From Bacteroidia bacterium (lineage in GTDB: Bacteria > Bacteroidota > Bacteroidia > SpSt-205), in contig JAOAHZ010000008.1 in assembly GCA_026414975.1 (NCBI GenBank), positions 62,001 to 126,000 of the forward strand: a stretch of DNA of 64,000 nt. The letters are read 5' to 3'. Shown in pieces: positions 19,478 to 20,558 of this stretch. Within the stretch, counting starts at the first letter, position 1. Each line of letters opens with the position of its first letter. The position numbers and the translations under genes were made by a program. A model generated the notes under the pieces. That model had not been told where the DNA came from. It did no database searches and saw only the letters and a list, made by a program, of their open reading frames with translations.

Positions 19478-20558
19478 TCAGCTTAGCTGCAGAAGATAGC
19501 TTTTTAGGAAAGGTTCAATCTCTCCATCTAAGACCGCCTGAGCATCGCTGGTTTCATAGTCTGTTCGGAGGTCTTTGACCAGCTTGTAGGGGTGGAGAAC
19601 GTAGCTTCGTATTTGAGAGCCCCATTCAATAGGTCGCTTTTGGGCTTCCAGCTTAGCCCGCTCCTCCTGACGCCTCCGAAGCTCTAACTGATAAAGGCGA
19701 CTTTTGAGGAGTTGGAGAGCTTTTTCCCGGTTCTGATGCTGGGAGCGTTCCTGCTGACAGGTAACCACAATACCTGTCGGTATATGCCGGACCCTAACAG
19801 CGGTTTCCACTTTATTCACATTTTGTCCGCCATGCCCCCCTGCTCGGAACGTGTCCCACTCTAAGTCGTTTGGATCAATCTTAATCTCTATTCGGTCATC
19901 TACCAAAGGGTACACAAATACCCCCGCAAACGAAGTATGCCTACGAGCATTTGCATCAAAAGGCGAAATGCGAACTAAGCGATGGACCCCATTTTCCCCC
20001 TTCAAATACCCATAGGCATAGGGGGCGTCGATTTCTATGGTGATATTCCGATAGCCTGCTCCCTCGCCCAGCAGCTCATCCACGATAGCAGTGGGCCATC
20101 CCTTCTTCTGCGCATACATGGTGTACATCCGAGCCAACATAGCCACCCAGTCCTGAGCCTCGGTACCACCAGCCCCTGCGTTAATCTCTATCACACATCC
20201 ATAAGCATCCTCAGGCGCCGAAAGCATTTTTTGCCACTCTAAGTCAGCCAGAGCTTTCTCTGCTTCACCAAAGGCACTTTCTACTTCTCTTTCCGAGGCC
20301 CCCCCTTCTTTGTAAAGCTCTAAGGCCATCTCGGCCAGCTCCACAGCCGACGATACCTTCTGAAACTTCTCTACCCAGTCGCGTTCGGCCTTGAGCTGGG
20401 CCAAAGTTTTACGCGCTGCCTCAGGGTCATCCCAGAAATCAGGTGCTTGACTTTTCGCTTCCAACGCGTTCACTACAGCTTCTCGCTGAGGAAGGTCAAA
20501 GAAACCTCCTTAGCGCCGAAAGGCGCTCCTTGAGCGTCTTGAGGGCGTCTTGCGTCAT
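19478..20558 (-). CDS. prfB: Peptide chain release factor 2, with programmed +1 frameshift
   Basis: RF2 releases finished proteins at UGA and UAA codons. The main frame alone begins without a proper N-terminus. The true gene starts at ATG 20558 ([20 protein letters not shown], 20 codons), reaches CTT TGA at 20501-20496, and continues after a +1 shift as [15 protein letters not shown], giving a 359-residue protein of normal length. The RF2 stop-recognition SPF motif ([11 protein letters not shown]) and the catalytic GGQ ([14 protein letters not shown]) are present. The shift lets low RF2 raise its own synthesis. TATATTTG lies five bases before the ATG. Confidence 0.95.
20496..20511 (-). promoter_or_regulatory. 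prfB programmed +1 frameshift site
   Basis: The minus strand reads AAGGAGG TTT CTT TGA C. This is the classic arrangement: a strong Shine-Dalgarno-like sequence three bases before CTT, followed by a UGA stop with C as the next base. The in-frame UGA is read by RF2 itself; when RF2 is scarce the ribosome slips from CUU to UUU and continues in the +1 frame. Confidence 0.93.

Follow-up and report, generated by a model that had tools for sequence, protein, structure and literature searches.

A conserved RNA hairpin adjoins the internal Shine-Dalgarno sequence of the prfB frameshift site in Bacteroidota

Bacterial +1 frameshifting is commonly exemplified by prfB, the RF2 gene, whose cassette is generally described as a Shine-Dalgarno (SD) sequence plus CUUUGAC. 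Work with E. coli reporters holds that strong shifting needs no more than the SD and the slip site. In Flavobacterium johnsoniae, Naeem and co-workers reportedly found the prfB shift to be largely SD-independent. The accessible portions of the literature (including PMC12421855, PMC8710568, PMC5009743 and PMC6321510) describe the cassette as an SD, a spacer, CUU, UGA and C, and within those portions, which fall short of the whole literature, we found no hairpin 5′ of the SD. According to McNutt 2021 (PMC8710568), the frameshift is present in 523 of 726 Bacteroidia and the SD of F. johnsoniae is a perfect AGGAGG; in the proposal of these authors, cis-acting elements or trans-acting factors yet to be identified promote a pause during which the anti-SD gains pairing time. 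In F. johnsoniae, bS21 Tyr54 is the residue responsible for redirecting the 16S tail (McNutt 2023, PMC9976891), and the efficiency of the prfB shift is reportedly low (Naeem 2024, as cited in Prince 2025, PMC12421855). Upstream structures have been described in two related settings. In a synthetic system with 70S ribosomes, a refolding hairpin with a 12-bp stem, placed 5′ of the CUUUGA slip site in place of the SD and separated from it by one CGC E-site codon, gave ~60% of the +1 activity of the SD (Huang 2018, PMC6321510). In T4 gene 60 bypassing, a 5′ stem-loop forming at the mRNA exit was proposed to pull the mRNA 5′-ward (PMC5009743).

The window, that is, the whole 64,000-nucleotide stretch of DNA analysed here, carries prfB on the minus strand (20558-19478), in two frames that a +1 shift joins into an intact RF2 of 359 aa. 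The zero frame (20558-20496) runs for 20 codons from an ATG and ends in CTT TGA C (20501-20495; TGA, 20498-20496), and skipping one base gives an uninterrupted +1 frame (GAC to TGA, 20497-19478). The internal SD, AAGGAGG (20511-20505), stands 3 nt ahead of CTT, the spacer being TTT (20504-20502), the E-site codon at the stall. The resulting order, AAGGAGG-TTT-CTT-TGA-C, matches the described AGGRGG, 3-nt spacer, CTT, TGA, C and +1 RF2 frame (Craigen and Caskey; Weiss; Baranov 2002; Prince 2025). The first-pass annotation had reported the 20-codon first frame, the SD spacing, CTT TGA C and a 359-residue RF2, and translation bore out each of these points. It had also warned that a naive start at GTG 20473 would shorten the protein; indeed, the ORF starting there (20473-19478) encodes only 331 aa, and 28 RF2 residues are therefore lost.

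Conservation in relatives, which had been put forward as a check, was found: AGGAGGTTTCTTTGAC is present in each of the 10 prfB loci identified within the genus and the family. Two more genomes of the genus gave no prfB match at E<=1e-60. The motif AAGGAGGNNNCTTTGAC occurs once in the 2.2-Mb genome, with zero occurrences of the reversed-pattern control. Since the 10 loci keep the cassette, the shift is not a sequencing error; more generally, the conserved cassette, the intact 359-aa RF2 and the single genomic copy of the motif refute an assembly error or a pseudogene, to which we attach practically no weight. With an early in-frame TGA, the RF2 body in the +1 frame, a CTT slip codon, a C after the TGA, an AGGRGG-like SD 3 nt before the slip codon and conservation in relatives, prfB here reads as a standard autoregulatory +1 frameshift gene, with predicted frameshifting and predicted RF2 feedback. 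Because McNutt 2021 already reports the shift, the frameshift as first noted is another case of known biology.

The first-pass annotation overlooked a hairpin adjoining the SD. The sequence AGCGCC-UUUC-GGCGCU (20527-20512, minus strand), ~32-47 nt into prfB, lies directly 5′ of the SD, with its 3′ end 1 nt before AGGAGG and a predicted energy of -11 kcal/mol. The 21-nt stretch containing it had a z of -2.64, and 5 of 200 dinucleotide shuffles folded equally well. When 65 nt around the window's own site were folded, the result was not unusual overall (z -0.46), and the SD was partly paired despite the hairpin. Rfam gave no match at the hairpin site and one chance hit elsewhere in prfB. A listing of relatives showed that their sequences at this place differ, yet are often self-complementary. 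In the part of the literature searched, the published cassette does not include a hairpin 5′ of the SD; it looks like a new element of a frameshift that is itself known.

To evaluate conservation, we assembled a set of 198 prfB loci, no two of them identical: 148 combine the shift with an SD, 15 have the shift alone and 35 have no shift. One of the conservation analyses excluded L001, L013, L060, L082, L110 and eight duplicate loci. Thinning at <=85% RF2 identity left 140 representatives, of which 108 had shift and SD, 12 shift without SD and 20 no shift. Loci with fewer than 15 zero-frame codons were reassigned to the no-shift group, and L113 (no shift region) and L082 (truncated) were left out of resampling. 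The 120 frameshifting representatives comprise 119 Bacteroidota, in the wide GTDB sense, and E. coli (L114), which is one of the 108 with an SD.

Two folding tests were applied. In the first, each gene was resampled synonymously according to its own codon usage and folded in sliding 8-codon windows. For the 108 SD representatives, the window ending at codon -4 gave -6.02 vs -3.01 for the resampled sequences (mean z -1.56; 36% at p<0.05). This was a single sharp peak directly 5′ of the SD: windows overlapping the hairpin (ending at -3 and -2) also scored, and those without overlap stayed within |z| 0.5. The shift-without-SD group had a z of -1.27. In prfB genes without shift the hairpin was weak or absent (mean z -0.25, n=20; Mann-Whitney p 1.5e-4 vs frameshifting genes). 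At <=60% RF2 identity, 14/14 frameshifting lineages had a negative z. Leaving out E. coli gave a mean z of -1.54 (n=119), and leaving out the genus and family of the window as well gave -1.51 (n=115). The second test was a column-wise synonymous shuffle, which preserves each protein and the codons of each column. The 120 frameshifting representatives reached -5.99 vs -4.17 kcal/mol (sd 0.17, z -10.9, 0/1000 shuffles), and shuffling within GC3 bins still gave a z of -10.4. The 15 other windows ranged from -5.2 to +2.2, and the no-shift group had a z of -1.8 (37/1000). Incidentally, the value of -5.2 corresponds to a second, weaker excess of structure just 3′ of the shift (codons +1 to +8), and some prfB genes carry 6-7 bp stems beginning at the GAC codon after the shift.

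A contiguous stem of at least 5 bp ending at most 3 nt from the SD was present in 76 of the 108 SD representatives, vs a null mean of 15.4 and a null maximum of 28 in 200 draws; the distance to the SD was 1 nt in 71 of these 76, 0 in four and 3 in one. The other 32 had no near-SD stem of 5 bp. The base before AGGRGG was a purine in 105/108 (97%), where the Leu codons used by these genes would predict 66%, and in no-shift genes the same base was a purine in 53% vs 64% expected. This purine fills the place between stem and AGGRGG, and the SD is therefore effectively 7 nt long, starting at the end of the stem. By sequence, the stems were diverse: we counted ~50 different ones across the frameshifting representatives, with two registers dominating. 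Doubly synonymous compensations were observed in Cytophagales-like relatives (L056, AAGGCT/AGCCTT; L087, AAAGCC/GGCTTT; L084, AAGGCC/GGCCTT). Single-pair covariation was modest (best z 4.3 among 276 pairs) because stem registers differ between genes; likewise, double changes counted in a fixed register kept pairing in 147/389, about one third, which is the chance level, as the register varies. Collectively, these data indicate with high confidence that the prfB hairpin is selected as RNA, beyond the amino-acid sequence and codon usage.

We then considered how widely the hairpin occurs, with and without an SD. In Flavobacteriaceae, 60 genomes were searched, 58 had a match, and the best 30 of these 58 (L255-L284) were analysed, 28 of them with the shift. 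Within this best 30 of 58, the 11 shift sites with an SD folded at -3.85 (null -2.18, z -0.99), and the 17 of the 28 without an SD showed no hairpin (-0.69, null -0.80, z +0.19). Since these 17 lack both, the hairpin is no simple substitute for a lost SD, and we rejected that possibility. Many of these genes share an upstream peptide, LNTRLDKL, whose coding sequence is unstructured. Outside Flavobacteriaceae, the SD-less sites L012, L023 and L122 keep a stable hairpin. In L012, from a sister family of the same order, CTTTGAC is kept, CACCAC occupies the SD position, and a stem GCGTC/GACGC remains, ending 4 nt before that position. Three other Bacteroidia, L128, L161 and L201, have CTTTAAC at the prfB site and no SD, and the structure preceding the site is weak (-3.0 to -4.9); their premature stop is TAA and is therefore readable by RF1 too.

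Our look beyond Bacteroidota covered 25 of 53 plasmid-collection records with an RF2 match, two of the 25 being Bacteroidota; in all, 18 shift-site loci were seen in cellular genomes other than Bacteroidota. All five frameshifting Alphaproteobacteria (Tistrella, Shinella, Methylobacterium and two Sinorhizobium) had stems of 7-8 bp, which folded at -9.6 to -12.9 and likewise ended 1 nt from the SD, and Mitsuaria had a hairpin of -11.3. In E. coli, a stem GGAACG/CGUUCU ends 1 nt before the SD; E. coli and Enterobacter folded at -5.8, values not significant singly (p 0.20 and 0.13). Among the genomes sampled, no significant hairpin was found in three Bacilli (Priestia, Paenibacillus, Latilactobacillus), two Clostridia (Monoglobus, Acetoanaerobium), Fusobacterium, Acinetobacter or Aeromonas. 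The average over the 21 loci of this look was set aside, as it includes one Bacteroidota record and L219, L220 and L222, whose "sites" are probably not real. A scan of viral_contigs gave mostly partial or non-canonical sites. RF2 matches at E<=1e-30 were present in 67 records of the phages collection, including 15 Prevotella phages. Release factors encoded by phages may account for some of these matches, and contaminating host DNA for others.

The state of the ribosome in this lineage was also considered. The bS21 of this genome, read from its ATG, has Tyr at position 54. A core SD match of at least 4 nt lay upstream of 7 of the 47 ORFs of at least 150 aa in the window, ORF starts being set mechanically at the first ATG, vs 4.1 +/- 1.8 for shuffled upstream sequences; this agrees with the earlier remark that most other genes here lack an SD. 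The Rfam 16S search of this MAG found nothing, and the 16S of G005, a complete genome of the same genus, has an intact CCTCC anti-SD; its 3′ end reads GGATTACCTCC (searched motif, GGATCACCTCC), with the anti-SD core intact. Taken together, bS21 Tyr54, rare SDs and CCTCC in a same-genus 16S suggest that the lineage fits the occluded anti-SD model. It thereby resembles F. johnsoniae, also a member of Bacteroidia with a perfect AGGAGG in prfB and bS21 Tyr54, but the host of the window belongs to a different, uncultured lineage. The first-pass annotation had presented prfB as a natural test of anti-SD sequestration. Tyr54 and the CCTCC of G005 are in keeping with that idea, but such a test had already been published (McNutt 2021). 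It had further argued that the anti-SD can still act in this organism. The frameshift was read correctly and the claim is plausible, but the site alone is no proof: as 17 of the 28 frameshifting Flavobacteriaceae among the best 30 of 58 have no SD, a shift by itself cannot prove SD pairing.

How might the hairpin act? When RF2 is abundant, ribosomes would terminate at the prfB TGA. The upstream stimulator would consist of two parts, a hairpin of 5-8 bp (inside codons -11 to -4, counted back from the slip codon) abutting a 7-nt purine SD (R-AGGAGG). With CUU in the P site, sequence geometry places the last base of the stem ~11 nt upstream of the P-site codon. This is near the mRNA exit from the 30S platform. 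The hairpin would refold on leaving the ribosome and may stack on the SD:anti-SD helix; refolded hairpin and helix together would pull the mRNA 5′-ward and block back-slip, favouring +1 slippage. In being stable, placed directly 5′ of the shift region and selected at the RNA level, the hairpin has features expected of an upstream refolding stimulator. What we infer is the formation of the hairpin on the ribosome, its stimulation of shifting and the mechanism; we put the probability that it stimulates the +1 shift by upstream refolding and a pull on the mRNA at roughly 0.6. In comparison with the hairpin of Huang 2018, the prfB stems are natural and shorter (5-8 bp), and the SD intervenes, so that they lie ~7 nt farther 5′ of the slip site; in comparison with T4 gene 60, they would serve a 1-nt shift in a conserved cellular gene and not a long hop in a phage gene.

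Other accounts of the hairpin were weighed against this one. It could be an insulator, which exerts no force on the mRNA and locks the upstream sequence away from competing for the anti-SD or pairing with the SD. Competitor SDs are absent just 5′ of the RF2 SD (Atkins 2016, PMC5009743, in the part available), which would suit such a role, as would the co-occurrence of SD and hairpin (Fisher p 2.5e-4 at <=90% identity and 0.04 at <=80%). That association is, however, not significant at <=70% identity (p 0.68), the SD-less sites L012, L023 and L122 keep a stable hairpin, and when 65 nt around the window's site are folded the SD is partly paired despite the hairpin. We consider an insulator unlikely. 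Less likely again is that SD:anti-SD pairing alone drives the shift, as the first-pass annotation saw it, the hairpin having another role such as slowing ribosomes ahead of the site or tuning early elongation or mRNA stability. In favour of this, the distance between hairpin and start is nearly as fixed in our set as that between hairpin and SD, the nearest ATG preceding the slip codon by 19 or 20 codons in 106/120; yet no-shift prfB genes have the same start region without the hairpin, and the stems of E. coli and Sinorhizobium keep their 1-nt distance from the SD although their annotated starts lie at other distances.

Finally, the hairpin might be a by-product of codon bias and of conserved residues (E/K-R..A-L) whose codons are complementary. 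Codons for Glu/Lys and Leu, and likewise for Arg and Ala, may be reverse complements of each other, and the null alone reaches -3 to -4 kcal/mol. Yet the excess survives resampling by own codon usage, the column-wise synonymous shuffle and the GC bins, and the doubly synonymous compensations of L056, L087 and L084 likewise stand against this account. Chance or an amino-acid by-product is thus largely refuted, and we hold it to be highly improbable.

Within the stimulation that we favour, a more specific version may be put forward tentatively, although we doubt it more than we believe it: the hairpin, flush on the SD:anti-SD helix, would be an old third element of the cassette, and in Bacteroidia the elongating ribosome would capture the anti-SD from the bS21/bS18/bS6 pocket. 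If true, such a composite helix would account for the retention in prfB of an SD that plays no part in initiation, and for the joint absence of SD and hairpin in many Flavobacteriaceae. More broadly, the prfB cassette would be extended by a selected hairpin that borders the SD in Bacteroidota, in Alphaproteobacteria and in E. coli alike. The hairpin is a candidate for the kind of cis-acting element suggested by McNutt 2021, and so a concrete candidate explanation for shifting by ribosomes whose anti-SD is occluded.
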